A stretch of 64,000 bases of DNA from Prevotella sp. (GTDB lineage Bacteria > Bacteroidota > Bacteroidia > Bacteroidales > Bacteroidaceae). The DNA is taken from contig JALFIX010000030.1 in the NCBI GenBank assembly GCA_022775105.1, forward strand, positions 1-64,000, read 5' to 3'. The position numbers and the translations under genes are program-made. A model generated the notes under the pieces. That model saw nothing but the letters and a program-made list of their open reading frames with translations. It was not told the DNA's origin and made no database searches. Below, piece after piece: positions 8,622 through 61,567 of the stretch (the first letter of the stretch is position 1; each line of letters starts with the position of its first letter).

Positions 8622-8641
8622 CTGTCTATATCAGGTCTTTG

Positions 8642-9724: not shown

Positions 9725-9738
9725 AGTTTATTTACTTA

Positions 9739-42057: not shown

Positions 42058-45000
42058 TTACTTTTCAATAAATTCCTTTACTGTCATTCCGAATTCCTTC
42101 TTGAAACATTTCGAGAAATACTTTGGCGTGTTGAATCCCACCTTCGCCGATAGTTCCACGATGGAGATTGAAGGATTCTCGCGCAGTATGCGGCAAGCCT
42201 CCTTCAGGCGGATGCTCGTGATGAACCCTGTGACGTTCTGTCCAGTGATGGCACGCAACTTGTTGTATAGCGTTGAGGATGAGATGCATAGGTCGAAGGC
42301 GAACGACTCGCGGTCGTAGTCGCCGTCCGACAGGTGTTTCTTCACACATTCCACCGCCTTTTCCACAAACGCCTGGTCGGGATTGCTGTAGTGATGTTCC
42401 TCAACCTTGAAGTCCGTCTGTTCGGCGAATTTCTTGCGTATCCTTTGGCGGTTAGCAATGATATTGCTCACGCGGATGTCGAGGTCGGTCATGCTGAACG
42501 GCTTGGTGATGTATGCGTCGGCACCGGTGACGAGTGCGTTGTTGCGGTCTTCGTCGCGGTTCTTTGCCGTCAGCATGATAATCGGCAACTGGGCATAGTT
42601 CGGGTCGTTCTTGATGGCCTTGGTCAGTTCGATGCCGTCCATCACTGGCATCATCACGTCTGAGATTACGATGTCCAGTTCCTCACGGTGTATGATATTA
42701 AGAGCCTGCTTGCCGTTCTTGGCAGTCATCACGTGGTATTTCTTGTCTAGCAGACGTTTCATGAGTGCGAGGAGTTCCTCGTTGTCCTCCACTATGAGAA
42801 TCTTGTATATATTATTGTCATCACTGTTTGGAGTGAGAGAAATGCCTGACACAGTGTCTGTTATGATGTCCTCTGCGGGTTGTCTCCTTCCCATTCCCGT
42901 GGTGTCAATCTCCTTTTGCAGAAAGGCGTCTTTCCTTATCGGAAGTGTGATGGTGAAGGTTGTGCCCTCATCCTTGCGGCTCTTGCAGTCGATTGAGCCG
43001 TGGTGAAGCTGCACGAGGTCGCGCGTCAGCGACAGTCCGATGCCAGTGCCTCCCGCCTTCATCCTGCGGTAGTCGCCGTCGTAGAATCGCTCGTAGAGTT
43101 TCTTCATCTGGCGGTGGGAGATACCAATACCGTTGTCCTCCACGGCGATCTTTATCTTCTGGTTTTCCTCTGCCACTCTCACAGTCACCTTTCCTCCCTC
43201 GTTGTTGTATTTTATGGCATTCGATATGACGTTATACATTATCTTGTCCAGTTTGTCGCTGTCAAACCATGCCTCGCTGAGGGCTTTTGTCTCGCGTGTC
43301 TCAAGTGTGAGCGTAACCTTCTTGGCTTCAGCCATCGGGCGTATGTCTTTCACTATGTTTTCGATGAATGTGAGCATATTTCCACGGCTCACCTTGAGTT
43401 TGAGCTGTCCTGCCTGTGCCTTTCTCACTTCGAGTATCTGGCGCAGCAGTCGTGTAATCTTGGTTATGTTGTTGTCTATCAGTGTATATTCGTCGTTGAA
43501 CTTGGCTTCCCTGTGCCTCATGTTATCCACAACGGCGGTGATTACCGCCAATGGTGTGAGCAGTTCGTGGGTGATATTGGTGAATACAACCGCCATCTGC
43601 AGACGGTTGCGCGTCTTCAGCAGTTCCTTGTACCACCTGATGCTGGCATAGATAGCCGCTATGCCGATTAGTATATACAGCATCCATGCCCACCATGTGA
43701 GATACCATGGCGGAAGCACTTTGATGGTGATGGAGTAGGGCAGTTCAAGCATGTCGCCGTAGTCATCGAATGCCCTCAGTCGGAACTTGTACGTTCCCGA
43801 CGGAAGGTTTTCGTATGTAGCTCGCCTTTGGTTGACGGTGAAGTGCCAATGGGTGTCATAACCTTCAAGACGGTAAGAATATCTGTTCTGGTCCTGATGG
43901 AAATAGTCGAGCAGTGCAAACTCAATTGAGAATCTGCTTATCGAGGCGGGAATTGTGATGTTGCGTGTGAATGCCGGCATCTCCTTGGACAACTGGCTGC
44001 GGGTGAGCGAGTCAAGGTAGTTGAATGGCTTGTCGTCGAAGGTCAAGTCGGTGATAGCCAATCGGTTGGTATGTCCTTTCATGGCTCTCATCTTTTCAGG
44101 TTCCACAGTGAGAATACCTTCCTTGCATCCGATGAAGAACTTGTTTTTGAATCTGAATATCTCTGAGATTGAGGCGATGCGCCTGCCTTGGGCATCCTCA
44201 TTGGAGAATGTCCTGATTTTGGGAAGAGCCTCGGGTGACTTCTCGTCAAATACGAGTTGGATGAGCGACTTGTCCGTCAGGAGCCAAATGGCTCCGAGGA
44301 TATCCTCGGAGATGGCGAACAGACTGTTCGCCATTATATGATATAAGCCATTGACCGCGACGAAGCGGTCTTCCTCTTCTTTGTAGAGGAACAGCGAGCC
44401 ACTGTTGGAAATCGCCCACAGTCTGTCGTGTGAGTCTTCCATACAATAGGATATGTCGTCAATGGCGATGTTTCCCAATATTTCCTTGTATTGCTTGTAT
44501 TTCAGTGAGTTAAGCTGCTTTACGTTTCCGTTCACACGTATGATGCCCTCGTTTTCGGTGGCAATCCAGATGTTCCCCTTGCGGTCTTGTGTGATGCCAC
44601 GTGCGTCGCAGTTTGAGAAGTTGCGTCCGTTTTCGGTCATGGTGAGCATGAATCCGTTGGCTTTCGTGTCTTGTTTGCCGTTGACTGAGGTTTTCACTCC
44701 CACGCCTTCCCTCTGTCCTACCCACACGTTGCCTTCGCGGTCGCAGAAGACGTAGTTCACGTAGTTGTCTGAGATGAATGGCGAATTACCGGTATTGAAT
44801 ACAGTTGCGTTTCCGTCTTTTATAGTCAGCACACCGCCACTGCTGCTTGCAAACCACAGGCTTCCGTCATTGTTCTGGGAAATGGCTGGCACTTGTGCTT
44901 TACATACTTCGTTGATATTCTTGCAGTTGCGCAGTTCGGGAATGTCTGTGTTATATGTTGTCACACCTGTAGCTGCATTGTACTTGGCAATGCCACAAGG

Positions 45001-46077
45001 TTTCAGTGCTATCCAGAAGTTCACGCCGTCATCAGTGTGCAGGTCAGTGATTACACTTACGGGCGTGTCGGCATTCTTAGTGTTTATCCGCAAAACGGGG
45101 ATTGGCTTCGAGTTGGTGTTGAATCTGAGTATGCCTTCGTCCACTGTTCCCGCAAAGATATGTCCGTGTCCGTCGGTGGTGATGTCTCGGCAGAACTTGT
45201 ATTGCTCATAATTAGTGAATCCCTCCTCCATCTTGTCTTGGTCGATAATGCTTATGCCGTTTCTGCTGCATGCCCAAACCGTCTTGCTCACGGGATCTTC
45301 AATCAGCTTGTATATGATATTAAACTCATTCTCCTTATTATTATAATATTGTACGCGTACATTATTTATAATATTAGGGTTCTCGATACAGGCTATTCCA
45401 TAACCCCATGTTCCCACCCACAATCTCTGCTTGCTGTCGATGAGCAGGGAGAAGGCTGAGTTCGACGGATTGATAGACGGATAGTGGTCGATGGTCTTCC
45501 TGTCTGCCTGAAGTCTCATCACTCCGTTGCACCATGTGCCGAAGTATATGTTTCCCTGTTTGTCCTCGGCGATGGACTTCACGCTGTAGTCGAAGCCTAA
45601 GTCGTAGGTATAGAAAGAGTCAGTTTTCTTGTTATATACGCTCAGTCCTCCGTCTGTGCCAATCCACACCATTCCGTCGTGGGAGGTGAAGAGTGTGTAG
45701 ATTATTCTTTGGTTGGGTTTGGGCAGACGGTAGGTCTTGAATGTGCCGTACCTTTTCGACATCTTCACCAGTCCGTCCCTTGTGCCAATCCACAAGTTGG
45801 CATCGTTGTCCTCGGTGAGTGACACGATGACATTGTTGGGGAGGATGCTTGGCGAGTATGCGTCCGACTTGAATGTGCGGTATTCATATCCATCGTATGA
45901 CATCAGTCCCGTGGCTGAGCCTATCCACAGCATGCCGCTTCGGTCAACGAACAACTTTCCTGATTCGTCGGAGTCGAAGGCATATATCTTGATAGGCGCT
46001 GCCGACCTGAATTCTATATCGGCAGCCTTGGTGATTAAAGATGCCAGAAAGATGGTAAATAATATAATAACTCTCAT
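42058..46077 (-). CDS. hybrid two-component system sensor/regulator (HTCS)
   Basis: The 1339-residue protein has a signal peptide, about 14 propeller repeats (WIGTRDGLVK, WVGTWGYGIA, WVGQREGVGV), a Y_Y_Y domain (about 700-785), a membrane helix (YLTWWAWMLYILIGIAAIYA, about 795-815), a HisKA box FTNITHELLTPLAV (His near 840) and an ATPase with DNGIGI and GTGIGLSL. A receiver domain follows with SDVMMPVMDG (Asp near 1136), and the protein ends in an AraC-type HTH (IVELSAKVGFNTPKYFSKCFKKEFG). HTCS proteins bind oligosaccharide in the periplasm and activate nearby utilization genes. It is divergent from the GH43 gene, and the tandem 21-bp repeats at 46150 and 47417 are its probable targets. Confidence 0.96.
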   Translation of the reverse strand: MRVIILFTIFLASLITKAADIEFRSAAPIKIYAFDSDESGKLFVDRSGMLWIGSATGLMSYDGYEYRTFKSDAYSPSILPNNVIVSLTEDNDANLWIGTRDGLVKMSKRYGTFKTYRLPKPNQRIIYTLFTSHDGMVWIGTDGGLSVYNKKTDSFYTYDLGFDYSVKSIAEDKQGNIYFGTWCNGVMRLQADRKTIDHYPSINPSNSAFSLLIDSKQRLWVGTWGYGIACIENPNIINNVRVQYYNNKENEFNIIYKLIEDPVSKTVWACSRNGISIIDQDKMEEGFTNYEQYKFCRDITTDGHGHIFAGTVDEGILRFNTNSKPIPVLRINTKNADTPVSVITDLHTDDGVNFWIALKPCGIAKYNAATGVTTYNTDIPELRNCKNINEVCKAQVPAISQNNDGSLWFASSSGGVLTIKDGNATVFNTGNSPFISDNYVNYVFCDREGNVWVGQREGVGVKTSVNGKQDTKANGFMLTMTENGRNFSNCDARGITQDRKGNIWIATENEGIIRVNGNVKQLNSLKYKQYKEILGNIAIDDISYCMEDSHDRLWAISNSGSLFLYKEEEDRFVAVNGLYHIMANSLFAISEDILGAIWLLTDKSLIQLVFDEKSPEALPKIRTFSNEDAQGRRIASISEIFRFKNKFFIGCKEGILTVEPEKMRAMKGHTNRLAITDLTFDDKPFNYLDSLTRSQLSKEMPAFTRNITIPASISRFSIEFALLDYFHQDQNRYSYRLEGYDTHWHFTVNQRRATYENLPSGTYKFRLRAFDDYGDMLELPYSITIKVLPPWYLTWWAWMLYILIGIAAIYASIRWYKELLKTRNRLQMAVVFTNITHELLTPLAVITAVVDNMRHREAKFNDEYTLIDNNITKITRLLRQILEVRKAQAGQLKLKVSRGNMLTFIENIVKDIRPMAEAKKVTLTLETRETKALSEAWFDSDKLDKIMYNVISNAIKYNNEGGKVTVRVAEENQKIKIAVEDNGIGISHRQMKKLYERFYDGDYRRMKAGGTGIGLSLTRDLVQLHHGSIDCKSRKDEGTTFTITLPIRKDAFLQKEIDTTGMGRRQPAEDIITDTVSGISLTPNSDDNNIYKILIVEDNEELLALMKRLLDKKYHVMTAKNGKQALNIIHREELDIVISDVMMPVMDGIELTKAIKNDPNYAQLPIIMLTAKNRDEDRNNALVTGADAYITKPFSMTDLDIRVSNIIANRQRIRKKFAEQTDFKVEEHHYSNPDQAFVEKAVECVKKHLSDGDYDRESFAFDLCISSSTLYNKLRAITGQNVTGFITSIRLKEACRILRENPSISIVELSAKVGFNTPKYFSKCFKKEFGMTVKEFIEK

Positions 46078-46108: not shown

Positions 46109-46139
46109 CAAAGATAGTGATTTAATTTGAATTATCGAA
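46109..46139 (-). promoter_or_regulatory. promoter of the HTCS gene
   Basis: On the minus strand TATCTTTG (46109-46116) is a perfect -7 box with TTCG at 46136-46139 (19-nt spacing) in place of TTTG. The leader is about 25-30 nt. Confidence 0.6.
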
Positions 46140-46149
46140 TTTTTATTCG

Positions 46150-46191
46150 AAAATAATGAAAATTACACCTAAAATAATGGTCTTTACCCCT
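46150..46191 (+). promoter_or_regulatory. tandem 21-bp operator upstream of GH43
   Basis: Two adjacent 21-bp units both begin AAAATAATG and end in ACACCT or TACCCCT. The second unit ends 19 nt before TAATTTTG (46211-46218), so the repeat stands where the -33 box would be. The units resemble those at 47417-47456. This is the layout expected for an activator such as the divergent HTCS. Confidence 0.65.
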
Positions 46192-46256
46192 TGGTCGCAC
46201 GATTTCGTCGTAATTTTGCGCCACAATTGAAACAATAACCAAAAAATCGTGTAACA

Positions 46257-47396
46257 ATGAAAAGTGTAACTGTTATCATTATATCATTACTACTTGTGGT
46301 CTTGCCTGCTCTCTCGTCGGGCAAGACCACCATCAAGTCAGGTGAGATTTGGAAGGACAACCGCGGTGAGCATATCAATGCCCACGGCGGTGGTGTGCTG
46401 AAGCATGGCAATACCTATTATTGGTATGGCGAGCATAAGGGCGAGAAGTCGAGTGCCGCCTTTGTGGGTGTCACTTGCTATTCGTCAAAGAACCTGCGCG
46501 ACTGGCGTTATGAGGGTGTGGCCCTGAGTGTTGTGGATGAGAAAGGGCACGACCTTGAGACAGGTTGCACTCTTGAGCGTCCCAAGGTTATATATAATAA
46601 GGTGACGAAGAAGTTCGTGATGTGGTTCCACCTCGAACTTAAGGGCGAGGGATATTGGCAGGCACGCTACGGAGTGGCGGTGAGCGATTCGCCAAAAGGT
46701 CCGTTTAAGTTCATCCGCTCTGACAGGGCTAACGCCGGGCATTATCCCTTGGACTTTGACAAAGATGACATGTCAGTGCTTGACACCCTCAATGCAGACA
46801 ACTACAAGGAATGGTGGACTCCCACCTGGCGCGACGCAATCAAGAAAGGACTCTTCCTCAAGCGCGACATGAAGGCGCGGACTATAGAAGGACACAACCT
46901 GCCCGCAGGACAGATGTCGAGGGACATGACCCTCTTTGTCGATACCGACGGCAGGGCATATCATATCTTCTCATCCGAAGACAATCTGACATTGCACATA
47001 GCGGAACTCAGTGATGACTATCTCTCGCATACGGGTCGCTACATCCGTGTGGCTCCTGGAGGTCAGAACGAAGCTCCAGCAGTCTTCCGTTATGGCAACA
47101 CCTATTGGATGATAGCCAGCGGATGCACAGGTTGGGATCCCAACGAGGCGCGTATGTTCTCTGCCCCGAGTATATGGGGACCGTGGAAACAGCATCCTAA
47201 TCCATGCCGAGGCCCTAAGGCAAACATCACTTTCGGCGGGCAGTCAACCTTTGTCCTGCCCACGGATGACGGCAAGTATATCTTTATGGCAGACATCTGG
47301 CGACCCAAGCATCCGATAGATGCGCGCTATATTTGGCTGCCTATAGATTTTGATAAAGACGGAGTTCCTGTGATAAACTGGCGTGATGAGTGGTGA
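46257..47396 (+). CDS. GH43 family glycoside hydrolase
   Basis: The 379-residue protein has a signal peptide (MKSVTVIIISLLLVVLPALSSG) and a five-bladed propeller start HINAHGGGVLKHGNTYYWYG, a form seen in galactan-active GH43 enzymes such as subfamilies 24 and 34. The usual N-terminal catalytic Asp of GH43 is not obvious. A Gln in GGQSTFVLP could fill the base role, as reported for GH43_24 exo-1,3-galactanases. A beta-galactan backbone target would fit the arabinofuranosidase genes nearby. The subfamily is my inference. It is the first rightward gene, controlled by its own operator. Confidence 0.8.
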   Translation: MKSVTVIIISLLLVVLPALSSGKTTIKSGEIWKDNRGEHINAHGGGVLKHGNTYYWYGEHKGEKSSAAFVGVTCYSSKNLRDWRYEGVALSVVDEKGHDLETGCTLERPKVIYNKVTKKFVMWFHLELKGEGYWQARYGVAVSDSPKGPFKFIRSDRANAGHYPLDFDKDDMSVLDTLNADNYKEWWTPTWRDAIKKGLFLKRDMKARTIEGHNLPAGQMSRDMTLFVDTDGRAYHIFSSEDNLTLHIAELSDDYLSHTGRYIRVAPGGQNEAPAVFRYGNTYWMIASGCTGWDPNEARMFSAPSIWGPWKQHPNPCRGPKANITFGGQSTFVLPTDDGKYIFMADIWRPKHPIDARYIWLPIDFDKDGVPVINWRDEW

Positions 47397-47416
47397 AAAA
47401 GGGGGCAAAAACGTGA

Positions 47417-47456
47417 ATTTAACGATTTGTACCCTTAAAATAACGATTTGTACCCC
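47417..47456 (+). promoter_or_regulatory. tandem operator upstream of the 1179-residue protein gene
   Basis: TAACGATTTGTACCC occurs exactly twice (47420-47434 and 47441-47455) with a period of 21 bp. A degenerate -7 box GAACTTTG (47477-47484) follows 20-21 nt later. Spacing and sequence agree with the repeat before the GH43 gene, which supports one shared regulator. Confidence 0.75.
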
Positions 47457-47531
47457 TCGTTGTGCCAAGAAATCACGAACTTTGCACGGAAATAACAACT
47501 TTTAATTAACATTATTAATAACAAAAATCAA

Positions 47532-50500
47532 ATGCCTATGTATTTTGGTAAAAAATTACTTATGATGGCCGTCTTGGGCTTGTCTGCAGCAGGCGCAAGT
47601 GCGGAGATTGTTGACGGAGTACGTCAGCAACCGCTTCCCGTCAAGTCACAGTTGACTTACGACGAAGCTATGTATTTGTTCAATACAGGAGCAAAGCAAT
47701 TCTTCCTGGGAGCAAATGACTGGAGTACCCGTGCCAGTGTTGGTAATAAGGGGTATCAGGTAACCATTACTGACAATGGTGACGGTTCTGTTCTTTTTAG
47801 GGACAGAGTGGAAACTCAGAACAATGAAATCAAGTGCGTCTTCGCCGATCCTTGGGCTCCAGATGGTGAAACACTTCCCGCTGGAAATGTTTGGGTTGAT
47901 AACAGTGGCGCTCCCAACAGATTCTGGGCACTCACAAACATTGGCGATGATATCTATCGTTTCTCTGTAAGTTCAGTTAACCCTGACTGTAATGATGCAA
48001 ATACCGTGCTTGGTTTGAAGAAGAGTGATCCTACAGATACTCGTCTTTATTGGAACCTTGCTCCGGAGGATGCTATCGCTGACTGGTATTTCGTTAAAAT
48101 AGAAGACTACGAGGCTTATCTGACTGTATTCGCTAACTTTGCAGCAGCACAGAACCTCAAGGCTGTTATCGACGAGGCCAAGGCTAGCGGTATCGATGTT
48201 TCAGCTGAGGAGAAAGTATATCTTGACGAGTCTTCTTCTGTAGATACAATTAATGAGGCCATTGCTTCTGTTAAGGAGAAGATTGCAGCGGGAGAAGAAG
48301 GAAAGGTTACAGCAGATAGTCCTGTTGACAAGACCTCTCTGATTGTCAATCCAAGCTATGACAACAACAAGAATGAAGGTTGGAGTGGTGATGCTCCTGC
48401 ATTCCAGTCTTGGACTGACGCTGAGTTCTACCAGAAGAAGTTTAACACCTATCAGAACATCACAGGTGCTCCTAAGGGAGTTTATGCACTGACAGTTCAG
48501 GCGTTCTATCGTTCTGGTAGCGCAAAAGACGCATATAATAACTATAAGAACGACACTCAGTATGATGCAAAGTTGTATGCTGAGACTGGTGGCGACCGTG
48601 TAACAGCTGATATAGTCAATCCATGGTCAGAGGCTCTTGCAGAACCACTTGGTATGAATGAGTCAACTGTAGATATAGACGGTGTACCTTATTATATACC
48701 AAATAATATGCAGACCGCTGAGGAGTATTTCAAATTAGGTAAATATAATAATAAGGTGTTCTTCGCTACAGAAGATGGTGACATGACTATTGGTATGTAC
48801 AAAGATAACTCAACCTCTCCATCATCTAACTGGGTTCTCTATGACAATTGGGGTCTGACATACTATGGTAACGGTTCTGATGCTTACTCATTGTGGCTCG
48901 AAGAAGTTAAAAATGCCGCCAAGGACTATTCAAATCTTCCTGACGATGTTCTCATAACAGGTTCTGTATTAGCTTCTTACAACAACACTATTGCCGGTTT
49001 GTCATCCGCCAGCAGCAAGTCAGATGTTCTCGCAGCCATCAATACAATTAACGAGGAAGCAGCATTGGTTGATGCTAACATCGCTGCTTGGAAGGCTTAT
49101 AATGAACTCCTTGCCAAGGCTCGAATCATAGCTAATGATGGTCAAATAAGCGGTGATGACAAGGGTGCCTTAGCTGACTATATAGAATTTGAAGCTTCTG
49201 ATATTACCAGTGAATTGGCTTTCTCAACAGAGGAGATTATCGCTGAGACCGATAAACTTGCGGCTATGTATGACGCTGCCATCAAGAATGGTATATCTGA
49301 AGGTACCGACGTTACAGACAAGTATCTTGTAAACGCTGACTTTGAGACCAAGAATCTTGGTTGGACAGTAGAAAAGGCAAATGATGGTAATGTTGCATAC
49401 GGTGGTTCTCCTAATCAATGCTTTGAGGCTTGGAACAACAGTAAGTTTGATATCTATCAGGAAGTAACAGGCGCTCCTGTCGGTGTATATGAGATTTCTG
49501 TTCAGGGATTCTATCGCTACGGACGTGGCAACAATGCATACGAGGCTTATCAGAATGGAACTGCTCCTAATGACGCTGTGAACATTTATGTTAACAACAA
49601 TAATGCACACTTCAAGAGCGTATTCGACGAGCCTGTAGCCAATGGTGAGCTTTACACTGCAGAAGGTGCTTGGACAGATCCTAATTCAGAGTACTGGTAT
49701 CCAAATGATATGAAAACTGGTAGCGAGGCATTTGCAGAAGGTATGTACGTAGCCACATCGTTCGGTGTTGTTGCCAAGGCTGGTGATGTTCTCCGTATTG
49801 GTGTCAAGGGTTCTACTAACCAGCTCAATGACAGCTGGGCTATCTGGGACAACTTCAGGATGGTATTCCAGGGCACAAAGGCTGAGGTGGTTTCTCCATT
49901 GCTCTCTCAGGAAATCCTACAGCTTCAGGAGACTCTTGACCAGGGTAAGAACGTAGGTAAGTCTGTTATCACGAATGCAAATGACGTGCTTGCAGCTGCC
50001 AATTCAGCCCTCTCCGGTTCTGACGGAAAGGCAATGTTTGATGCACTTTGTAGCATTATTGATGCCAAGGCAGCATACGAGTCATCTGCTGTCCTGTTTG
50101 CAACTCTGCAAGATAAGAACGCAGACCTCTACGCTTCTTGGATGATTTCTGTCGCAACTGAGACTGTTAAGAGTGAGGCTTCCGCTCTCTATGAAGAGAT
50201 TAAATCAGGCATAGAAAACGGCACACTCAACAATGAGGATGCTGAGGCTTACCTCGCCAAGATTGAGAAGATGATTGTTCAGCTCGGTATTCCTGCTGAT
50301 GCAGCAAATGCTTCTGACAAGAATCCTGTTGAATTGACTTCTCTCATCAAGACTCCAAGCTTCGAGAAGGACGGTGCCAACTCTATCGAGGGCTGGAACG
50401 CCGATGGCTACAACTTCGGTAACGACGATACTCAGAAGTCAGCACTGCTCGTTGAGTTCTACGATAAGGCTTTCGACCTCAACCAGACTATCGTTGGTCT

Positions 50501-51071
50501 GCCTAACGGTAAGTATAAGGTGACTGTTAATGCGTTCTATCGCTATGGTAGCACAGCTGAAGATTATGCAAACTACAATTCTGGTCTTGATGGTAATGCA
50601 TACATGTACACAACTACTGGTGGTGTGACTACCGAAGTTCCTGTTGCTCTCCTTTCTTCTGGAGCTTGTGAGGATAATGGTTACACTGGCGTTGCTAACA
50701 TTGAAGGTACGGACTACTATGTTCCTAACGACATGGTTTCTGCTAATGCATACTTCACAGATCTCGGTTATTACCTCAACGAGATTACCGTTGAAGTGGT
50801 TGACAATGAACTGACTATCGGTATCAAGCTTGCTGAAGAGAATAAGGTTAAGAACAACTGGGTAATCCTCGATAACTGGACTCTCACATACTATGGCGAG
50901 AACAGCAACCCCGGTACAGGTGTTGAGGGCGTTGAGGTTGCTAATCCTGCAAAGGTTGAAATCTACAATGTCAACGGTATGAAGACCAAGGGCTTCTCTA
51001 AGGGTGTGAACATCGTAAAGATGACATCCAAGGACGGTGCCGTTAAGTTCAGCAAGGTTAACGTTAAGTAA
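47532..51071 (+). CDS. large secreted protein with three copies of a CBM-like module
   Basis: The 1179-residue protein has a signal peptide ending GASAE, an N-terminal part with FLGANDWSTRAS (beta-trefoil-like), then three modules of about 185 residues at roughly 268-452, 597-785 and 935-1125. Each starts NPSY/NADF/TPSF + GW and contains F/LNQT or YQ.(I/V)TGAP.G.Y and FYR.G...(D/N)AY. Helical segments rich in Ala separate them. A fourth copy ends the GH51-GH43 protein. The pattern suggests a carbohydrate-binding beta-sandwich. The last 50 residues (VEIYNVNGMKTKG) form the usual Prevotella secretion tail. No catalytic site is seen; it may be a surface glycan-binding protein. Confidence 0.8.
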   Translation: MPMYFGKKLLMMAVLGLSAAGASAEIVDGVRQQPLPVKSQLTYDEAMYLFNTGAKQFFLGANDWSTRASVGNKGYQVTITDNGDGSVLFRDRVETQNNEIKCVFADPWAPDGETLPAGNVWVDNSGAPNRFWALTNIGDDIYRFSVSSVNPDCNDANTVLGLKKSDPTDTRLYWNLAPEDAIADWYFVKIEDYEAYLTVFANFAAAQNLKAVIDEAKASGIDVSAEEKVYLDESSSVDTINEAIASVKEKIAAGEEGKVTADSPVDKTSLIVNPSYDNNKNEGWSGDAPAFQSWTDAEFYQKKFNTYQNITGAPKGVYALTVQAFYRSGSAKDAYNNYKNDTQYDAKLYAETGGDRVTADIVNPWSEALAEPLGMNESTVDIDGVPYYIPNNMQTAEEYFKLGKYNNKVFFATEDGDMTIGMYKDNSTSPSSNWVLYDNWGLTYYGNGSDAYSLWLEEVKNAAKDYSNLPDDVLITGSVLASYNNTIAGLSSASSKSDVLAAINTINEEAALVDANIAAWKAYNELLAKARIIANDGQISGDDKGALADYIEFEASDITSELAFSTEEIIAETDKLAAMYDAAIKNGISEGTDVTDKYLVNADFETKNLGWTVEKANDGNVAYGGSPNQCFEAWNNSKFDIYQEVTGAPVGVYEISVQGFYRYGRGNNAYEAYQNGTAPNDAVNIYVNNNNAHFKSVFDEPVANGELYTAEGAWTDPNSEYWYPNDMKTGSEAFAEGMYVATSFGVVAKAGDVLRIGVKGSTNQLNDSWAIWDNFRMVFQGTKAEVVSPLLSQEILQLQETLDQGKNVGKSVITNANDVLAAANSALSGSDGKAMFDALCSIIDAKAAYESSAVLFATLQDKNADLYASWMISVATETVKSEASALYEEIKSGIENGTLNNEDAEAYLAKIEKMIVQLGIPADAANASDKNPVELTSLIKTPSFEKDGANSIEGWNADGYNFGNDDTQKSALLVEFYDKAFDLNQTIVGLPNGKYKVTVNAFYRYGSTAEDYANYNSGLDGNAYMYTTTGGVTTEVPVALLSSGACEDNGYTGVANIEGTDYYVPNDMVSANAYFTDLGYYLNEITVEVVDNELTIGIKLAEENKVKNNWVILDNWTLTYYGENSNPGTGVEGVEVANPAKVEIYNVNGMKTKGFSKGVNIVKMTSKDGAVKFSKVNVK

Positions 51072-51182: not shown

Positions 51183-54100
51183 ATGAAGAATATTTTTCTA
51201 ACTGCAATGTTTTTGGGCGTGACATTCTGTAGCGCACAGGCACAAGTGAAAATGACGGTCGATGCCTCAAAGCGCGGACCGGTGATTAGCCAGTATCAGT
51301 ATGGCTTGTTTTTTGAGGAGATTAATCATGCAGGCGACGGAGGTCTGTATGCAGAACTCGTGAGCAACCGCTCCTTTGAGGACGGCACCGCATCATGGAA
51401 GGCATACAACGGCGCTACCATTAGTCTTGTGACCGACGACATGCTCAACGATGCCCAGCAGCACGCATTGCAGGTTAGAATATCAGGTGCTTCGGATTCC
51501 AAACTTAAGGGAATCTCAAACACGGGCTTTTGGGGAATGAACATCCAGAAGGGTGAAACCTATACATTGTCCCTGTGGGTTAAAGGAGATAATGTGTTTT
51601 CAAAGAATATAAAGGCTCAGCTTCGTTCAGAAAATGGTACAAAGGTGCTCGGCGAGGCAACACTCGAAGGTGACGTAAGCGATTCCCAATGGAACAAGCT
51701 CACGGCAACAATCACGGCAACAGATTCCGACAAGAAAGGACAGCTACTACTGCTCACGGGCAGCAATGGCCGTCTGACGTTTGATGTCGTGTCATTGTTT
51801 CCCAAGACATGGAAGGACCGTCCCAACGGACTACGTCCCGACTTGGCTCAGCTACTGGCTGACACCAAGCCGTCGTTCCTCCGTTTCCCCGGTGGATGTT
51901 ATGTGGAGGGAGAGGGCAGCTATGGTAATGCCTTCCAGTGGAAGAAGACTATAGGAAAGATTGAGGAGCGTCCAGGACACTACAACCAGAATTGGCATTA
52001 TTGGTCGTCAGATGGTCTCGGATATGACGAGTATCTTCAGATGTGCGAGGACCTCGGAGCCGCGCCGATGTTCGTGGTTAACATTGGAGTGGGTCACGGC
52101 TTTGCGCTTTCAAAAGATTCCACAGAGATACTGATTCAGGATGTTCTCGATGCCATAGAATATGCCAACGGTGACGAGACAACAGAGTGGGGAGCCAAGC
52201 GTATAGCCAACGGACACGCGGCTCCCTATAACCTGAAATTCATTGAGATAGGAAATGAGAACTATCAGGCTGGTCTGCATTCCGACTATGCCGAGAGATA
52301 CAAGCTTTTCTATGATGCCATCAAGGCTAAGTATCCCGAGATAATCACTATAGGAAACGTGGAGGCATGGGGAACAGACAATCCCGCATGGGGCAACGAA
52401 TATCCCGTGGAGATGGTGGACGAGCATTATTATCGCAACTTCATGTGGATGCGCGACAACTACAACAAGTATGACAATTATCCCCGCACGATTCCCGTCT
52501 ATAACGGAGAATACGCCGCCAACGGCGGCAACTACGGCAGATACGGCAATATGAACAGCGCGCTTGGCGAGGCTGTATATATGCTTGGCATGGAGCGCAA
52601 CAGCGACGTGTGCCAGTTGGCGTCATTCGCGCCTATCTTCATGCATGAGCAAGACCCATGCTGGCCGTATGACATGATTCACTTCAATGCAGCTGACAAC
52701 TTCGTGACTCCTTCGTATTATGTGCAGAAACTCATGAACCTGCATCTCGGCGAGCAGAACCTCCTGTGGACTGAAAGCGACAACATCGTTAAGAGTGATG
52801 GAGCTGCAAAAGTTGGAGTAGGAACATGGGGCACTGTGGCACAGTTTGAAAATGCCACACTTACTGATGCCAATGGCAATGCCATCGCCTCAGATGACTT
52901 CAGTGGTGACATGGCGCAGTGGACTGCTGGAGAGGGTAACTGGAGCGTGACAAACGGATTCCTTAAGCAGACATCAACAGGAACAAACTGCACGGCAGTG
53001 CTGAATGTGGCAGCCAAGGGTAATTATATATATAAGGTTCGCGCGAAGAAGATCTCCGGAGATGAGGGATTCCTCATTATGTTCAACTATCAGGACAACA
53101 ACAACTACGCATGGTGGAACATCGGCGGATGGGGTAACACTCAACATGCAGTGGAGATATGCACCGACGGCCAGAAAGCAACATACGCCTCAATCAAGGG
53201 CAGTGTGGCAAGCAACCGCTGGTATGACGTGGAGATTAGGGTTGTTGACGGCAAGGTGACTTGTCTGCTCGACAATGAGGTATGCCATGAGTTTAATCTG
53301 CCCGAGGCTCCCGGAGCGCGTGGAGTATATCAGAGCGTACAGATAGACGAGACAAACGGCGAACTGATTGTCAAAGTAGTCAATCCGCATGCCGTGGCCC
53401 AGACTATCGACCTGAACACACTCAATATGAAGATTGCCAACGGAACAGTTGTTAGACTCGCTTCCGCCAACGGTACTGACGAGAACACTATGGAGCAGCC
53501 GTTCAACGTGACTCCTTCTGATGCACAGGCAGTAAGCGTCATCGACGATACTCACGCCACTCTTGAAATCCCAGCCTTCTCACTGAACATCTTCCGTCTC
53601 GGTGCCAAGGAAATAGGCAAGGAGGTGAAGACAACCTACGCCGAATACGAGAAGGAAGACGAGGGAATGGCAGGTTATCTCTTCGCCCACATGAACCGCA
53701 ACGGCGAATACACCAACTACGCCCTGAGTCAGCACGGACAGAGCTGGAACGACATACTCAACGGTGCTGAGGTGTTCGACACCAAGGCTAACACCGTTAC
53801 AGGAGGTATGCGTGACGCTTTCATCACAAGAATGCCCGACGGCAACTTCATGTTCGCAGGTACTGACATGACTTCGAGATTGGGATGGACAAGCAACCAC
53901 GTAATGGTGCTGATGCTTTCTCCCGACCTCGTTCACTGGACAAAGAACGTGAAGATTGACCTTGAGACACCAGAGAACCTTGAGGCTCTCGGAGGTATCA
54001 CCGCTGAGGAAATGACTGCCGCATGGGCTCCGCAGATTATATATGACAACGAGAGCGGAAACTTCGTGGTTTATTACAGCGTTGGATTCCCCGACCGTCA

Positions 54101-55445
54101 CCGTATCTATTATACAGTGGTGGATAAGGACTTGAATATCCTCACTCGTCCGCAACTCTACTTCGACCCCGGTTATGACATCATCGATGCCGACATCGTA
54201 TGGAACGCTGTTGACAAGCAGTATGTAATGATTTACAAGTGCGAGAAGACTTCAGGCTTCGACCGTGCCACTGCCACACACCTCATACCAAGGGCAGGGG
54301 AGACAACAGGCACATGCCAGTGGACTGTTACTCCAGACTTCCACGTGGGTGACAACAATCAGGCAGTAGAGGCACCCACACAGTGGCGACTCATAGGCAG
54401 TGACAAGTGGAAGCTCGCCTATATCAACTATTCAGGCGCAGGTTATGGATATAAGATGCGCGACATGGACGAACACGGACTCAACGTGGGCAATCCTGCC
54501 CTCATCAGCGGTTCGGTTGCCGCACAGCATGGTTGCATCCTCAAGATAACCGCAGCAGAATACAACTATCTCAAGACTTGGGAAAAGGTGAAGACTATGC
54601 TCCCCACTGTGGAAAGCTACTACAAGGCCTGCAAGGCGGAAGCCATTGGCAAGGCTCTTGAAACAGCAAACAACGCTCTCAACAACAGCACAACATTTGC
54701 CGAGAACGCCAAGGCAATGAGCGAAGCCCTCGTGGCACTCTCAGGTTGCGAGGCAATATACAAGGATTTCATCAAAGATATGGCAGACTCAGGCAAGGCT
54801 GTGGATATGTCGGCGCTGATGGTTAATCCCGACTTCAGCAAGGGAAGCGAGGGATGGACAACATCAGGAAACTTCACCCAGGCAAACGGCTATGTAGCTG
54901 AATACTGGAATACATGGTTCTCGTTCTATCAAACAGTTGAAAACTTGCCGAAGGGAGAGTATGAAGTGGGAGTGCAGAGCTTCTACAGATACGGTTCTAT
55001 AGAGAACGCCCTCAACGCAGTGGCTGACGGTACTGAGAAACTTAATGCAGTATTCTTCGCAAATGGCGAGTCTATGCCTATCATGAGTCTCTACGACGAG
55101 AGTGCAGACAGATATGGTGTAAGTCCATATACCTATCCCGACAACGTTCAGGCTGCCAATGAGGCATTCAATACCTACGGCTACTACAATCACACGCTGA
55201 AAGTGACACTCGGCGAGCCTGGTAGTATAAAAATAGGTATAGAGAACCTCAGTCCCGTAAACTCCGACTGGTGCTGCTTCGACAACTTCACGCTGAAATA
55301 CCTTGGAGATGGCACTGGTATCGACAGTGTGAAATCAGACACCAAGGGTTCTGAAAAGACATACACCCTCGGCGGTATGGAGATAAAAGGCAATGCCAAG
55401 ACCAAGGGAATAAGAATAAGAAATGGAAAGAAAGAAATTAAATAA
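51183..55445 (+). CDS. GH51 alpha-L-arabinofuranosidase fused to a GH43-like domain
   Basis: The 1420-residue protein has a signal peptide (FCSAQAQ), a GH51 start (YGLFFEEINHAGDGGLYAEL) with an inserted CBM-like domain (about 60-210), and catalytic sites IEIGNEN (acid/base near 357) and PVYNGEYAA (nucleophile near 442). A laminin/ConA-like domain (about 560-720) is inserted before the end of the GH51 sandwich. Residues about 825-1135 form a GH43-like propeller (AFITRMPDGNFMFAGTD, AAWAPQIIYD, FDPGYDIIDADIVW). A helical linker and a fourth CBM-like module (about 1210-1376) follow. It should remove arabinofuranose side chains; the activity of the second domain is unknown. Confidence 0.88.
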   Translation: MKNIFLTAMFLGVTFCSAQAQVKMTVDASKRGPVISQYQYGLFFEEINHAGDGGLYAELVSNRSFEDGTASWKAYNGATISLVTDDMLNDAQQHALQVRISGASDSKLKGISNTGFWGMNIQKGETYTLSLWVKGDNVFSKNIKAQLRSENGTKVLGEATLEGDVSDSQWNKLTATITATDSDKKGQLLLLTGSNGRLTFDVVSLFPKTWKDRPNGLRPDLAQLLADTKPSFLRFPGGCYVEGEGSYGNAFQWKKTIGKIEERPGHYNQNWHYWSSDGLGYDEYLQMCEDLGAAPMFVVNIGVGHGFALSKDSTEILIQDVLDAIEYANGDETTEWGAKRIANGHAAPYNLKFIEIGNENYQAGLHSDYAERYKLFYDAIKAKYPEIITIGNVEAWGTDNPAWGNEYPVEMVDEHYYRNFMWMRDNYNKYDNYPRTIPVYNGEYAANGGNYGRYGNMNSALGEAVYMLGMERNSDVCQLASFAPIFMHEQDPCWPYDMIHFNAADNFVTPSYYVQKLMNLHLGEQNLLWTESDNIVKSDGAAKVGVGTWGTVAQFENATLTDANGNAIASDDFSGDMAQWTAGEGNWSVTNGFLKQTSTGTNCTAVLNVAAKGNYIYKVRAKKISGDEGFLIMFNYQDNNNYAWWNIGGWGNTQHAVEICTDGQKATYASIKGSVASNRWYDVEIRVVDGKVTCLLDNEVCHEFNLPEAPGARGVYQSVQIDETNGELIVKVVNPHAVAQTIDLNTLNMKIANGTVVRLASANGTDENTMEQPFNVTPSDAQAVSVIDDTHATLEIPAFSLNIFRLGAKEIGKEVKTTYAEYEKEDEGMAGYLFAHMNRNGEYTNYALSQHGQSWNDILNGAEVFDTKANTVTGGMRDAFITRMPDGNFMFAGTDMTSRLGWTSNHVMVLMLSPDLVHWTKNVKIDLETPENLEALGGITAEEMTAAWAPQIIYDNESGNFVVYYSVGFPDRHRIYYTVVDKDLNILTRPQLYFDPGYDIIDADIVWNAVDKQYVMIYKCEKTSGFDRATATHLIPRAGETTGTCQWTVTPDFHVGDNNQAVEAPTQWRLIGSDKWKLAYINYSGAGYGYKMRDMDEHGLNVGNPALISGSVAAQHGCILKITAAEYNYLKTWEKVKTMLPTVESYYKACKAEAIGKALETANNALNNSTTFAENAKAMSEALVALSGCEAIYKDFIKDMADSGKAVDMSALMVNPDFSKGSEGWTTSGNFTQANGYVAEYWNTWFSFYQTVENLPKGEYEVGVQSFYRYGSIENALNAVADGTEKLNAVFFANGESMPIMSLYDESADRYGVSPYTYPDNVQAANEAFNTYGYYNHTLKVTLGEPGSIKIGIENLSPVNSDWCCFDNFTLKYLGDGTGIDSVKSDTKGSEKTYTLGGMEIKGNAKTKGIRIRNGKKEIK

Positions 55446-55465
55446 TAACTAAAACTTAAATTGAC

Positions 55466-58177
55466 ATGAATTGCAAACTTATCCAAAAGGGAACCTGTAG
55501 GCCCACACTTGCAATCGGTCTGATGCTGGCTACGTCAGTTGCCTTCCAGTCATGTAAGGATGACACCCTAACGGGGCAGCCTTCATGGTTGGGCAACTCC
55601 ATCTATGAGGAGTTGCAGAAAGACGGCAACTACACTGTGACTACCAGACTTATTGACGACCTGGGACTGCACGACCAGATGAGCCGTACCGGTTCTGTAA
55701 CTTTGTTTGCAGCCGACGATGCTGCATTTGATGAGTGGTTCAAGACAAACAAGTGGGGAGTGAGGTCGTATGACAAACTCACCACGGCACAGAAAAAAGA
55801 CCTGTTGAACAACTCCATGATTAACAACGCCTACCTGATAGAGCTGATGTCGAACGTAAGTGCCGACCCACCTGAGACGGGACTCGCCATGCGTCGCACC
55901 AACTCCACCAGTGTCTTCGACTCTGTCTATGTGATGAAGCACGAGGACATGAACGGCACACTGCCAGCATGGGCATGGTACAAGGAAAACAAGAAGGACA
56001 TCATCCTCTTCAAGGACGGACGCATGATGAGCAACGGTTCTACAGCCGGACTCTCTGCCCCGATGATCCATTTCCTTCCCGCCTTCATGCGTAAGCAGGC
56101 TTTCACCGACGAGGACATCACTATCCTCACCAACGGTGTTGCCACCTCTGTCAGTGACGCTTACGTGGCAGGAAGAAAGGTAGTGGAAAGAGACCTTACC
56201 TGCAAGAACGGTTATATCCAGAAGATGGACGGAGTGGTGGAGGGATTCCCCAATATGGCTGAAATCCTCCGTCAGCACTCCAACACGTCAATGTGGTCGC
56301 ATCTGATCGACCGTTTCAGTGCGCCTTACTATGACTACTACAAGACACAGGAGTACAACCGTCTCTACAACCAGAGTGTCGATTCTGTATTTACCCTGCG
56401 TTACTTCGCCGATACCCGCAAGGACGGTATGAACGCCGAGTACTATCCAGTGACAAGCGGTAACCCCGTGCCAGTAAAGGTGCCCGCAAAGCTCACCTTC
56501 GACCCGGGATGGAACCAGTATATGTATGAGAACACCAGCGGTTACGATCTCCACTATGATGCCGGTGTGATGCTCGTTCCAAGCAACGAGGCACTCGACA
56601 AGTGGTGGAACGCCGACGGAAAGGTGCTCAAGGACAAGTATGGCACATGGGACAATGTGCCCGACCTCGTATTGTCAAAACTCCTCCGCGTAAACATGCT
56701 CGGAACATTCACTGAGGCACTGCCTTCGAAGTTCTCGTCAATCGTGAACGACGCCAAGGTGTCAATGGGTGTAACAACTGCCGACGTGGATAGCTGCTTC
56801 ATGGGTTGCAACGGTGTGGTATATCTCACTAACCGCGTGTTTGCCCCAATGGAGTATTCGAGCGTTTCTTTCCCTGCCCTTATCCATCAGGACGTGATGA
56901 GCATCATCTATTGGGCTATTGACGAACTTGAGTTCACACCTTATCTTAACTCGATGGACTCATACTATAGCCTCCTGTTGCCTACCAACAACGCAATGTT
57001 GTGTTATCTCGACCCATGTTCTGTGGGCGATGCGCAGGAGTCGCTCCTTCAGTTCTATTACGACAATATCGAAAGAAAGGTGAAGGCCTACCGCTATACA
57101 TATACCAAAGGTGAGAACGGTGAGATTGTATTGGGCAATAAGGTACAGGAAAACGTGCCCGATGCTATCATCAAGAACCGTCTGAGAGACGTTGTCAACC
57201 AAATGATTATCGTTGGAAGCGTGGAGAACGACTACAGCTACTTCAAGTCGAAGAACGGTACTACCGTGAAGATTGAGAACGCGGGAAAGCGTGACCAGAT
57301 GACAGTTAAAGGTGGATGGCAGTTGGAGAACAACGCCGTGGCTAAGGTTGACTCCATCTATGACATGTCAACAACCGGTAACGGTAAGTCATACCGCATG
57401 AACGAGCAGTTCCCGATGGCAGCCACAAAGTCTGTGTATCAGATTCTCAATGAGAAGGAAGAGTACTCAGAGTTTCTCAAGTTGCTGAGCGGTTCGGAGA
57501 ACCTTCCTGCCGACGACCACCTGCTTGTGAGCACAATCACACTTAACAAGGTTAAGTACAACTGTGCCAACTCAGCCGTCAACAGTAATATCCGTCTCTT
57601 CGGTGCATATAACTATACGGTATATGTTCCCACCAACGAGTCGATTCAGAAACTCATCAACGACGGTGTGCTGCCCACATGGGAAGACTACGACGCACAG
57701 TATGAAATCTCAGAGAATGGTTCAACCGAAGAGGAGAGGGCTGCCGCCAAAGCTGCCTGCACTATGATTGCAAACCGCATCCTTGACTTCGTGAAGTATC
57801 ACATCCAGGACAACTCTGTGGCAGTGAACGGTGCTCCCGATACTGACTCAGAGGGAATGGCAATCACCAAGAACAACTACGAGTCGATGATGCTCAATGC
57901 CGAGACCAACCGATTCTACAGTCTTGAGGTGGATGTGGCAAACAAGGGACTCACAGTGAAGGACCTTGAGGGCGACACACGCAATGTAGTGAAGAAGGAC
58001 GGAATGTATAACAATATCTGCCGTGAATACTGGATTTCAGGTTCACTCTTCAACAAGTCCATCTATACCACCGCCGACGTGCTGGTACACCAGATTGACG
58101 GCCCGCTTTTCTATGCGGCAAGCCAGAAGACACCGTGGAAGCAGCAGTTAGCGAAATCTAAAGCGAGAAGGAGGTAA
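55466..58177 (+). CDS. fasciclin-domain lipoprotein
   Basis: The 903-residue protein has a lipoprotein signal (SVAFQSCKDD) and at least two or three fasciclin (FAS1) domains. The first has VTLFAADDAAFDEWF and later domains have MLVPSNEALDKWW, SLLLPTNNAMLCYL and YTVYVPTNESIQKL, the typical A(T/V/S)D(D/N).AF pattern. FAS1 domains mediate adhesion or ligand binding. It stands directly before susC (3-bp gap) and is 20 bp after the GH51 gene, so it probably acts as a surface glycan-binding lipoprotein in the utilization system in place of a SusE/F-type protein. Confidence 0.88.
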   Translation: MNCKLIQKGTCRPTLAIGLMLATSVAFQSCKDDTLTGQPSWLGNSIYEELQKDGNYTVTTRLIDDLGLHDQMSRTGSVTLFAADDAAFDEWFKTNKWGVRSYDKLTTAQKKDLLNNSMINNAYLIELMSNVSADPPETGLAMRRTNSTSVFDSVYVMKHEDMNGTLPAWAWYKENKKDIILFKDGRMMSNGSTAGLSAPMIHFLPAFMRKQAFTDEDITILTNGVATSVSDAYVAGRKVVERDLTCKNGYIQKMDGVVEGFPNMAEILRQHSNTSMWSHLIDRFSAPYYDYYKTQEYNRLYNQSVDSVFTLRYFADTRKDGMNAEYYPVTSGNPVPVKVPAKLTFDPGWNQYMYENTSGYDLHYDAGVMLVPSNEALDKWWNADGKVLKDKYGTWDNVPDLVLSKLLRVNMLGTFTEALPSKFSSIVNDAKVSMGVTTADVDSCFMGCNGVVYLTNRVFAPMEYSSVSFPALIHQDVMSIIYWAIDELEFTPYLNSMDSYYSLLLPTNNAMLCYLDPCSVGDAQESLLQFYYDNIERKVKAYRYTYTKGENGEIVLGNKVQENVPDAIIKNRLRDVVNQMIIVGSVENDYSYFKSKNGTTVKIENAGKRDQMTVKGGWQLENNAVAKVDSIYDMSTTGNGKSYRMNEQFPMAATKSVYQILNEKEEYSEFLKLLSGSENLPADDHLLVSTITLNKVKYNCANSAVNSNIRLFGAYNYTVYVPTNESIQKLINDGVLPTWEDYDAQYEISENGSTEEERAAAKAACTMIANRILDFVKYHIQDNSVAVNGAPDTDSEGMAITKNNYESMMLNAETNRFYSLEVDVANKGLTVKDLEGDTRNVVKKDGMYNNICREYWISGSLFNKSIYTTADVLVHQIDGPLFYAASQKTPWKQQLAKSKARRR

Positions 58178-58180
58178 GTT

Positions 58181-61100
58181 ATGGAGTATTACATTAAAAC
58201 AAAACAACAGATGAAGGCTATATTGCAAAAGTCTATGGGACAGTGCCGCATTATGCTGACGGTGCTTGCCCTGCTGGTATGCTCGTCAATATATGCCCAG
58301 ATTACGTCAGTCCATGGTACTGTTGCTGACGATATGGGAGGCTTGATGGGTGCTACCGTCTGTGAGATTGATGCCAACGGACGTATCATAAACTCTACGA
58401 TAACCGACTTGAACGGTAACTTCACCATGAACGTGAAGAACGCCAAGAACAAGATTCGTTTCAGTTACGTAGGTATGAAGACCCAGATACTGGCCATCAA
58501 CAAAGCTGTGTTCAACATCAAGATGTTGTCTGCAACGCAAATCAAGGAAGTGACCGTTGTGGCAAAGAAGCGTACAGGCGGTAACAACCTCGGTATTCCT
58601 GAGCGTGAGGTTTCTTACGCTGCCCAGTCTATCTCGATGAAGGAGTTCGCTGGTCTGCCCATCACCTCTGTGGATGAGGCTCTCCAGGGACGTATCGCCG
58701 GTCTTGACATTATCGGTAACTCCGGTGACCTTGGTTCTGGCTCTACTATCCGTCTGCGTGGTACGTCAGCCTTGTCTTCACTGACAAATGCCGACCCGCT
58801 TATCGTTGTCGATGGTAATATTCGCAGTGTGGATATGTCAAACTTCGACCTTGGCGGTGCCAACGACGAGAAGTTTGCCGAGTTGCTCAACATCAACCCT
58901 GAGGACATCGCCGACATCCGTGTGCTGAAGGATGCTGCCGCTACTGCCGTATATGGTAGCCAGGGTGGTAACGGTGTTATCGAGCTTACCACAAAGCGTG
59001 GTGCCATGGGTGCACCGAAGGTGTCTTACTCTCTTAAGATGACCGCCACACACCAGCCCAAGGGTTATGACCTGTTGAACGGTGACGACTATACCATGAT
59101 GTTGAAGGAGAGCTACTTCAATCCTACACAGGATGACAGCCGCAGCCAGAGCATCAAGGAAATCAACTACGACCCCAACTTCTCGGAATACGAGCAGTAT
59201 AACAACAACACCGACTGGCGCAGTGCAGTGACACAGACCGGTCTTCGCCAGAACCACTACCTGTCAATCACGGGTGGAGGTGAGAAGGCATCGTTCCGTA
59301 TCGGTGGAGGTTTCGATAACGAGACAGGTTCGGTCATCCAGCAGAAGCTGAGCCGTTTCTCAACTCGTGTGGCTCTCGACTACTATGTCAGCGAGCGTAT
59401 CAAGGTGTCAACCAACTTCGCCCTGACTTATACCAAAAACAAGCTCAACAGTGATGACCTCCTTGCCATCGCTATGAAGAAGATGCCTAACATGAGCATC
59501 TATGAGCAGGACCCTGTTACAGGACAGGACACAGACCGCTTCTACCAGATGTTGCAGACAGCATCTGACGTGTTCGACAAGAACCAGAAGTCATACGTCA
59601 ACCCGGTGGCAAGTGCTTATCTCGCCAAGAAGGAGCGTCGCACCTACGACCTCTCTCCTGAGCTTATCATCAACTACCGACTTCTCGGTATCGACGATTC
59701 GCACACACGTCTTGACTGGCGCGGTAGTGTGTATATGAGCGTGTTCAACCAGTATGACGACGCTTTCTATCCGTCAGAGCTGCGCACAGTGGATTGGCAT
59801 GACGGTGTGAACACGGCTTCTTCGGGAAGCTCTAAGAGTGTGTCTTTCAACACCAAGCAGACTCTTACCTTCATACCTCACTTCGACAACGAGGACCACT
59901 CACTCTCAATGATGGGACGTTTCGAGTTGAACTCAGGTACGTCAAGCGGACAGTCAAACGGTGCCAAGCTGTTGCCTTCAGGCGGTATCGAGAGCCCTGA
60001 CGCAGGCGGTGTGAACACCGGTCTGGCTTCATGGTATTCACAGTGGCGTTCGATGTACTTCACCTATTCTATGCACTACGCATACAAGGGAAAGTATATG
60101 TTCGACTTCTCAATGCGTGCCGATGGTACAACCAAGTTCGGACCTGGCAACCGCTGGGGGTACTTCCCCGCAGTGTCACTGCGTTGGAACATCATCGACG
60201 AGCCGTTTATGACCCCGCTCCGCGAAAAGTGGCTTTCGATGCTTTCAATCCGTCCAAGCTGGGGACGTGTGGGTAACCAGCCTAACCAGGATTACCTCTA
60301 TACCAGTAAGTATGCCTCAGGCAACAGATACCTCGACATGGCAACTATGTATCCTGTGAATATCCGCCTGACCGACCTGCGCTGGCAGATTAACTCAAGC
60401 TACAACCTCGGTATCGACATCGGTCTGTGGGACGACAAACTGACCTTCACTCTCGAAGGCTATCACTCCACAACAACCGATATGCTCTTGAGTAACTACC
60501 GCATTCCGAGCAACTCAGGATATATGACCGTTCCTTACCATAACAACGGTAAGATGAGAAACATCGGTTGGGAGTTCCACCTCAACACCCGCAACCTCAT
60601 AAAGGTGGGCAAGGTGACCATCGACGTGAACGCCAACTTCGGTAACAACCGCAACGAGATTCTCGAGATGGATGAGTATGTAATCAACTCACTCAACTCA
60701 ACCTACGCCTACGGCAATGGCGAGTGGTTGCGCCGCGTGCAGCTGAACAACCCGCTCGGTGCCATCTACGGATTCCGCAGCAAGGGTGTATATCAGTATA
60801 ACTATGAGACCTTCAAGGACATGAATGACGAGGAGCGCGCTGCATTCATCGCTGCCGGCAAGACAGCCCCCGTGGCATTCAACGCCGAGGGCAAGCTGAT
60901 TCTCGATGCCGAGGGCAATCCTCTTAGAATGCGCTATAACTACAACAATGAGGGTACAGGAAAGAACTATCCGTTCACCGGTGGTGACGCCATCTATGAG
61001 GATGTCAACCACGACGGTAATATCGACGCCCTCGATATCGTTTATCTCGGAAGTTCGCTGCCTAAGCTCACCGGTGGATTCGGATTCAACTTCATCTACA

Positions 61101-61555
61101 AGGACTGGCGACTCTCCACACAGTTCACCTATCGTGTGGGCAACAAGATTCTCAACATGGCACGTCTGAACGCCGAGTCAATGAGAGGCAATGACAACCA
61201 GAGCCAGGCAGTAAACTACCGCTGGCGCAAGGAAGGCGACGTGACCTCAATCCCACGCGCAATGTTCGGAAACACATCGAACTACAACACCCTCGTCAGC
61301 GACCGCTTCGTGGAGTCAGGTTCATATCTGCGTATGAGCTACATCCAGCTCTCATATACGTTGGGCAAGAAGATGCTCAAGCCAATAGGACTTAACCGCA
61401 TCGCCATTTATGCAAGTGCCAACAACCCGTTCATCATCACGAAATATTCGGGTGTTGACCCTGATATTACCGCCAATGGCTATGACCCGGCTATCGACTG
61501 GGCACAGACGCCTCGCTCACGTTCATATACATTAGGTATCACAGTAGATTTTTAA
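58181..61555 (+). CDS. susC: SusC/RagA-type TonB-dependent transporter
   Basis: The 1124-residue protein has a signal peptide, a carboxypeptidase-regulatory-like domain (ITSVHGTVADDMGGLMGATV), a TonB plug (DEALQGRIAGLDII, STIRLRGTSAL, PLIVVDGN) and a long beta-barrel ending in an aromatic residue (YTLGITVDF). It imports oligosaccharides across the outer membrane with SusD. The ATG at 58211 (MKAILQKSMGQ) is a more typical start than 58181 and would give 1114 residues. It lies 12 bp before susD. Confidence 0.95.
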   Translation: MEYYIKTKQQMKAILQKSMGQCRIMLTVLALLVCSSIYAQITSVHGTVADDMGGLMGATVCEIDANGRIINSTITDLNGNFTMNVKNAKNKIRFSYVGMKTQILAINKAVFNIKMLSATQIKEVTVVAKKRTGGNNLGIPEREVSYAAQSISMKEFAGLPITSVDEALQGRIAGLDIIGNSGDLGSGSTIRLRGTSALSSLTNADPLIVVDGNIRSVDMSNFDLGGANDEKFAELLNINPEDIADIRVLKDAAATAVYGSQGGNGVIELTTKRGAMGAPKVSYSLKMTATHQPKGYDLLNGDDYTMMLKESYFNPTQDDSRSQSIKEINYDPNFSEYEQYNNNTDWRSAVTQTGLRQNHYLSITGGGEKASFRIGGGFDNETGSVIQQKLSRFSTRVALDYYVSERIKVSTNFALTYTKNKLNSDDLLAIAMKKMPNMSIYEQDPVTGQDTDRFYQMLQTASDVFDKNQKSYVNPVASAYLAKKERRTYDLSPELIINYRLLGIDDSHTRLDWRGSVYMSVFNQYDDAFYPSELRTVDWHDGVNTASSGSSKSVSFNTKQTLTFIPHFDNEDHSLSMMGRFELNSGTSSGQSNGAKLLPSGGIESPDAGGVNTGLASWYSQWRSMYFTYSMHYAYKGKYMFDFSMRADGTTKFGPGNRWGYFPAVSLRWNIIDEPFMTPLREKWLSMLSIRPSWGRVGNQPNQDYLYTSKYASGNRYLDMATMYPVNIRLTDLRWQINSSYNLGIDIGLWDDKLTFTLEGYHSTTTDMLLSNYRIPSNSGYMTVPYHNNGKMRNIGWEFHLNTRNLIKVGKVTIDVNANFGNNRNEILEMDEYVINSLNSTYAYGNGEWLRRVQLNNPLGAIYGFRSKGVYQYNYETFKDMNDEERAAFIAAGKTAPVAFNAEGKLILDAEGNPLRMRYNYNNEGTGKNYPFTGGDAIYEDVNHDGNIDALDIVYLGSSLPKLTGGFGFNFIYKDWRLSTQFTYRVGNKILNMARLNAESMRGNDNQSQAVNYRWRKEGDVTSIPRAMFGNTSNYNTLVSDRFVESGSYLRMSYIQLSYTLGKKMLKPIGLNRIAIYASANNPFIITKYSGVDPDITANGYDPAIDWAQTPRSRSYTLGITVDF

Positions 61556-61567
61556 GTAACGACGTTT

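Follow-up and report, generated by a model that had tools for sequence, protein, structure and literature searches.

A tandem 21-bp operator at two promoters of a Prevotella arabinose-polysaccharide locus and its probable recognition by the adjacent HTCS

In the window, the whole 64,000-nt stretch of Prevotella sp. DNA analysed here (assembly GCA_022775105.1, contig JALFIX010000030.1), two promoters of one locus, 1.2 kb apart, are each preceded by a pair of adjacent 21-bp repeats. This arrangement raises two questions. Which regulator recognizes these repeats, and how would its binding act on the two promoters? The features concerned are collected in Table 1.

Table 1. Positions of the operators, promoter boxes and genes of the locus, and of the kinase-less orthologues of its HTCS in other genomes.
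Feature	Position	Strand	Remarks
HTCS, 1339 aa (Reg_prop propeller sensor, Y_Y_Y, HisKA/HATPase, receiver, AraC-type HTH)	42058-46077	-	proposed binder of both operators
Tandem operator 1 (units 46150-46170 and 46171-46191)	46150-46191	+	before GH43; 36 bits (partly by construction), E 3.9e-10
-7 box TAATTTTG of the GH43 promoter	46211-46218	+	19 nt past operator 1; consensus from PMC7366714
GH43 glycoside hydrolase, 379 aa	46257-47396	+	Pfam PF04616
Tandem operator 2 (units 47416-47436 and 47437-47457)	47416-47457	+	before the 1179-aa gene and SusC/SusD operon; 57.5 bits (partly by construction), E 7.6e-17
-7 box GAACTTTG of the 1179-aa gene promoter	47477-47484	+	19 nt past operator 2
1179-aa protein	47532-51071	+	no Pfam family; opens the downstream run
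Probable rest of operon	51183-63289	+	short gaps suggest co-transcription
GH51-type arabinofuranosidase	51183-55445	+	
Fasciclin-domain protein	55466-58177	+	
SusC	58181-61555	+	
SusD	61568-63289	+	
Kinase-less HTCS orthologues	L064:16036-18909; L249:4403-7285; L250:4690-7569; L251:10102-13035; L253-L258		

The two units of operator 1, AAAATAATGAAAATTACACCT and AAAATAATGGTCTTTACCCCT, agree at 16 of 21 positions, and those of operator 2, AATTTAACGATTTGTACCCTT and AAAATAACGATTTGTACCCCT, at 18 of 21. The unit cores lie 21 bp apart in both pairs, and the upstream unit before the GH43 gene is the weakest of the four. The preliminary description had placed two adjacent 21-bp units before this gene at 46150-46191, which the sequence bears out, and had noted an exact 15-bp repeat in the second pair, which is found as TAACGATTTGTACCC at 47420-47434 and 47441-47455; the second pair itself is real as well, but it extends one base further on each side than the bounds then given for it (47417-47456). 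The core TAAYGRTYTKTACCC has exact matches only at three of the window units in the whole 3.5-Mb genome, and with at most three mismatches to the 21-bp consensus, 0.00 occurrences are expected in shuffled windows, against three observed. Searches with a single unit at two mismatches were discarded as noise (37 matches versus 54 in the control).

The operators precede polysaccharide-utilization genes linked to an HTCS, and the GH43 gene is divergent from the gene of this regulator. The HTCS is a hybrid in the full sense, with a periplasmic sensor, a histidine kinase, a receiver and an AraC-type HTH in one protein; its HisKA domain scores under the Pfam cut-off (23.0 versus 26.9), yet the H-box HELLTPL and the receiver Asp are present. 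For comparison, gel shifts show receiver-HTH fragments of the HTCSs BT4124 and BT4663 binding to the promoter of the susC gene in the respective locus, and the S/CHIP motif, which is tied to HTH inhibition, is found in most HTCS receivers as a common rather than a defining feature (PMC11253607). In contrast, the receiver of the window HTCS reads AQLP in its place, and AQLP or a close variant stands there in nearly all orthologues checked. Judging from the GH43 and GH51 genes, the locus probably acts on arabinan or arabinoxylan. Relatives of the 1179-aa protein occur in 120 of 398 genomes of the genus, the close ones opening a similar operon, and its named relatives all come from Prevotella-group bacteria.

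Both promoters have the same geometry, fixed by the distance from operator end to -7 box: the pairs had been described as ending about 19-21 nt before this box, and the measured gap is exactly 19 nt in both. When compared with the consensus of sigma-ABfr promoters (TAnnTTTG for the -7 box and TTTG for the -33 box; PMC7366714), the GH43 octamer is a full match, and that of the 1179-aa gene is a partial one, having TTTG without TA; the latter octamer is identical in position and sequence in G111, the closest relative. The -33 box TTTG is absent before the 1179-aa gene, and TTGG (46191-46194) takes its place before GH43. The earlier statement that the operator replaces the -33 box largely stands: unit 2 covers the -33 position, but the GH43 promoter retains its TTGG. 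In 24 of 62 sites, the -7 octamer is preceded by a TTG at a distance of 20 nt. The position of unit 2 over the -33 region suggests activation by replacing or assisting the contact made there. On the minus strand, TATCTTTG at 46109-46116 probably serves the HTCS gene as its -7 box; with the upstream end of operator 1 at a distance of 33 nt, autoregulation of the HTCS is possible.

The repeats were traced in 398 genomes of the same genus. The strict tandem core (at most three mismatches) gave three matches, in the window, G111 and G331, and the reversed control gave none. The match in G111 is directly before a 73% orthologue of the 1179-aa gene; this genome has the pair at both promoters, and the operator is also found at the GH43 promoters of G111, G308, G147, G132, G207, G353 and G363. 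It is therefore conserved at orthologous promoters. A matrix trained on eight units from the window and G111 was then applied, at a score of at least 16 and with spacings from 12 to 33, to a held-out set of 32 further loci, each surrounding an HTCS orthologue (555 kb in all). A spacing of 21 yielded 24 pairs, and no other spacing gave more than 4; at spacing 21 there was none in 371 kb of control loci, none in first-order simulated sequence and none in 19 loci of non-orthologous HTCSs. A promoter site is present in 20 of the 32 loci, and the other 12, G331's own HTCS locus and some contig ends included, have no promoter site above the threshold. TTTG, which was not used in the search and is expected at about 2% from base composition, lies 22-24 nt downstream in 32 of the 33 listed sites (exactly 23 nt in 29). 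Among the genes that follow the sites are GH43 genes, the 1179-aa gene and SusC genes that share no more than 22-32% identity with the window SusC, which points to the HTCS as the common factor.

Within the alignment of 42 sites (A2), unit 1 keeps CCC in 40, as do the downstream units in the window. In many relatives, unit 2 departs from symmetry: 17 of the 42 sites have approximately AAGGGGAC in its distal half in place of TTGTNCCCC (columns 33-41).

The association with the HTCS was also followed genome by genome. A pattern combining the two units with TTTGC occurs in 42 of the 398 genomes, with one match in the control; it is present in 31 of the 46 genomes with an HTCS orthologue and in 11 of the 352 without (Fisher p about 1e-25, a value that overstates independence because the genomes are related). 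Two of these 11 have sensors that are cut off where a contig ends, four carry the motif of a group of short HTCSs, three are chance-like, and two are others. Since GH43 often travels with the HTCS, linkage alone cannot tell the two apart. G331, however, carries two operators on a 35-kb contig that yielded no HTCS; the operator locus is orthologous (SusC 90%) to the HTCS-linked locus of G062, and the HTCS of G331 is on another contig. Operator and regulator are thus separated by linkage there while both persist.

A sequence model of the 42 sites includes the window sites, whose 57.5 and 36 bits are partly by construction. In the genome of the window, these sites are followed by a match of 24.6 bits at C128:27630-27684, which is partial and lies beside another HTCS, and by one of 20.7 bits on C227, and then by background. 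Neither is claimed as an added member of the regulon, which is predicted from the sequence to consist of the two local transcription units. The check proposed in the preliminary description, a search for the motif before unrelated genes, returned two good promoters and one weak, partial third candidate in this genome.

The repeats, with their spacing and promoter position, are conserved and linked with one HTCS lineage. The adjacent HTCS had been put forward as the candidate binder, and phylogenetic footprinting, the 21-bp spacing, the fixed promoter geometry and the genome-by-genome co-occurrence support this. On these sequence comparisons, both 42-bp elements are very probably the operator of the adjacent HTCS, lying over the -33 region for activation.

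Ownership by another AraC-type regulator, such as the sensor-less short HTCS on C227, has to be weighed against this assignment. The short HTCSs (G000:C227:6630-8312 and L072-L079) are about 560-615 aa long and have a kinase, a receiver and an HTH without a sensor domain. From kinase to HTH their identity is about 45-51%, and their tandem 21-bp motifs (ATNACGNATTTTNNACCT) are laid out similarly. A few of these motifs are picked up by the matrix, and the C227 site gives a weak match to the model (20.7 bits). However, the C227 protein has a distinct site of its own, and the operator tracks the long HTCS lineage across genomes, with 36-57 bits at the window sites, partly by construction as said. 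We consider such an owner improbable. Even less credit can be given to a repressor or catabolite-control site that both promoters happen to share. A repressor could also act at the -33 region, into which the operator reaches with its 3′ end, but 21-bp direct repeats suit AraC-type dimers, the two promoters resemble activated ones in having a weak -33 element or none, and the site tracks a single HTCS lineage, not sugar genes in general. Finally, two promoters 1.2 kb apart in one locus might resemble each other by chance or by recent duplication of promoter DNA. Against this stand the 0.00 expected in shuffles and the fact that relatives keep both sites, with diverged sequence and constant spacing and position, and the held-out matrix scan, the TTTG downstream of its sites and the genome-wide pattern already contradict it; this explanation is the least credible of all.

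With the adjacent HTCS as the binder, we infer the following scheme for its ligand, DNA binding and activation. The signal would be an arabinose-containing oligosaccharide, recognized by the propeller domain in the periplasm; the HTCS kinase would cause phosphorylation of the receiver, and two AraC-type DNA-binding domains would sit head-to-tail on the operator, one per 21-bp unit, on one helix face and two turns apart. At the -33 position, which lies under the downstream unit, the bound dimer may replace or assist the sigma contact, and the units activated would be GH43 and the 1179-aa/GH51/SusC/SusD operon. An arabinose-polysaccharide locus would thereby gain a precise operator and a small predicted regulon, in a group for which few HTCS sites have been described.

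This layout, in which a site is directly repeated at a distance of about 21 bp, has counterparts. In Ravcheev et al. 2013 (PMC3878776), the operators of Bacteroides HTCSs are predicted as direct repeats with an average spacing of 21 bp, read as two monomers on one DNA face two turns apart; as in the window, the operons that follow them encode SusC/SusD and hydrolases and adjoin the gene of an HTCS with an AraC-type HTH. The window operator, compared with these by design, has the unit consensus AAAATAACGATTTGTNCCCCT and belongs to the Prevotella group, and its distance to the -7 box was measured here to be constant across many genomes. It is well supported as a further example of the published HTCS operator design, here in the Prevotella group. 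The araI1-I2 site of E. coli AraC also has head-to-tail half-sites about 21 bp apart, of which the proximal one overlaps the upstream promoter element. The window operator resembles it in layout, but AraC differs in being a cytoplasmic one-component protein without membrane sensor or phosphorelay.

Arabinan loci of Bacteroides are controlled by AraR, some of them jointly with an HTCS, through sites of the AAAGTGT..CACTTT type (PMC4666351), which are palindromes, whereas the window operators are direct repeats. No such palindrome lies within 400 bp upstream of the window 1179-aa gene. Orthologues of this gene without a linked HTCS have no tandem operator, and several carry an AraR-like palindrome instead; palindromes of this kind (AAAGTGTNAAAANNNCACTTT) are found upstream of the orthologue in L115, L117, L118, L119 and L124-L126, and G213 has both the AraR-like palindrome and the HTCS site. 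The palindromes before the relatives' operon and the two site types in G213 suggest regulatory rewiring.

A different kind of change is seen in the regulator itself. In ten genomes, the HTCS orthologue is complete at 950-977 aa without kinase or receiver, and an eleventh is truncated. These proteins consist of the propeller sensor, a membrane helix and the same HTH (64-68% identical), and they form one clade nested within the full HTCSs (support 97/94), so that the loss of kinase and receiver is derived. Their loci have the same operator at the same distance from the -7 box (25 sites, some from near-identical genomes). It is thus likely that one operator type serves two signalling designs, a full phosphorelay HTCS in most relatives and, in this derived clade, a sensor joined through the membrane directly to the HTH. 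If so, the periplasmic sensor could drive tandem binding without phosphorylation, and these relatives would offer a natural comparison for what the phosphorelay adds to HTCS control. Given that AQLP or a variant replaces S/CHIP in nearly all kinase-bearing members checked, the receiver may have become dispensable through loss of the S/CHIP contact. A literature search did not find HTCS relatives without kinase and receiver described, which does not prove that no description exists.

Two other deviating frames were met among the orthologues. The HTCS of G363 is split into a 711-aa sensor frame (L218:5831-7966) and a 592-aa kinase-receiver-HTH frame (8071-9849), which is either real or an assembly error, and a 5959-residue open frame beside the HTCS of G024 was dismissed as an artefact of masked sequence. 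Most promoters of the kinase-less group (L249, L250, L252, L254 and L256-L258) have a palindrome, TTGATWTAAATCAA, directly past unit 2 in the -33 region. FNR/CRP-type regulators have the consensus TTGAT-N4-ATCAA, which this palindrome resembles.
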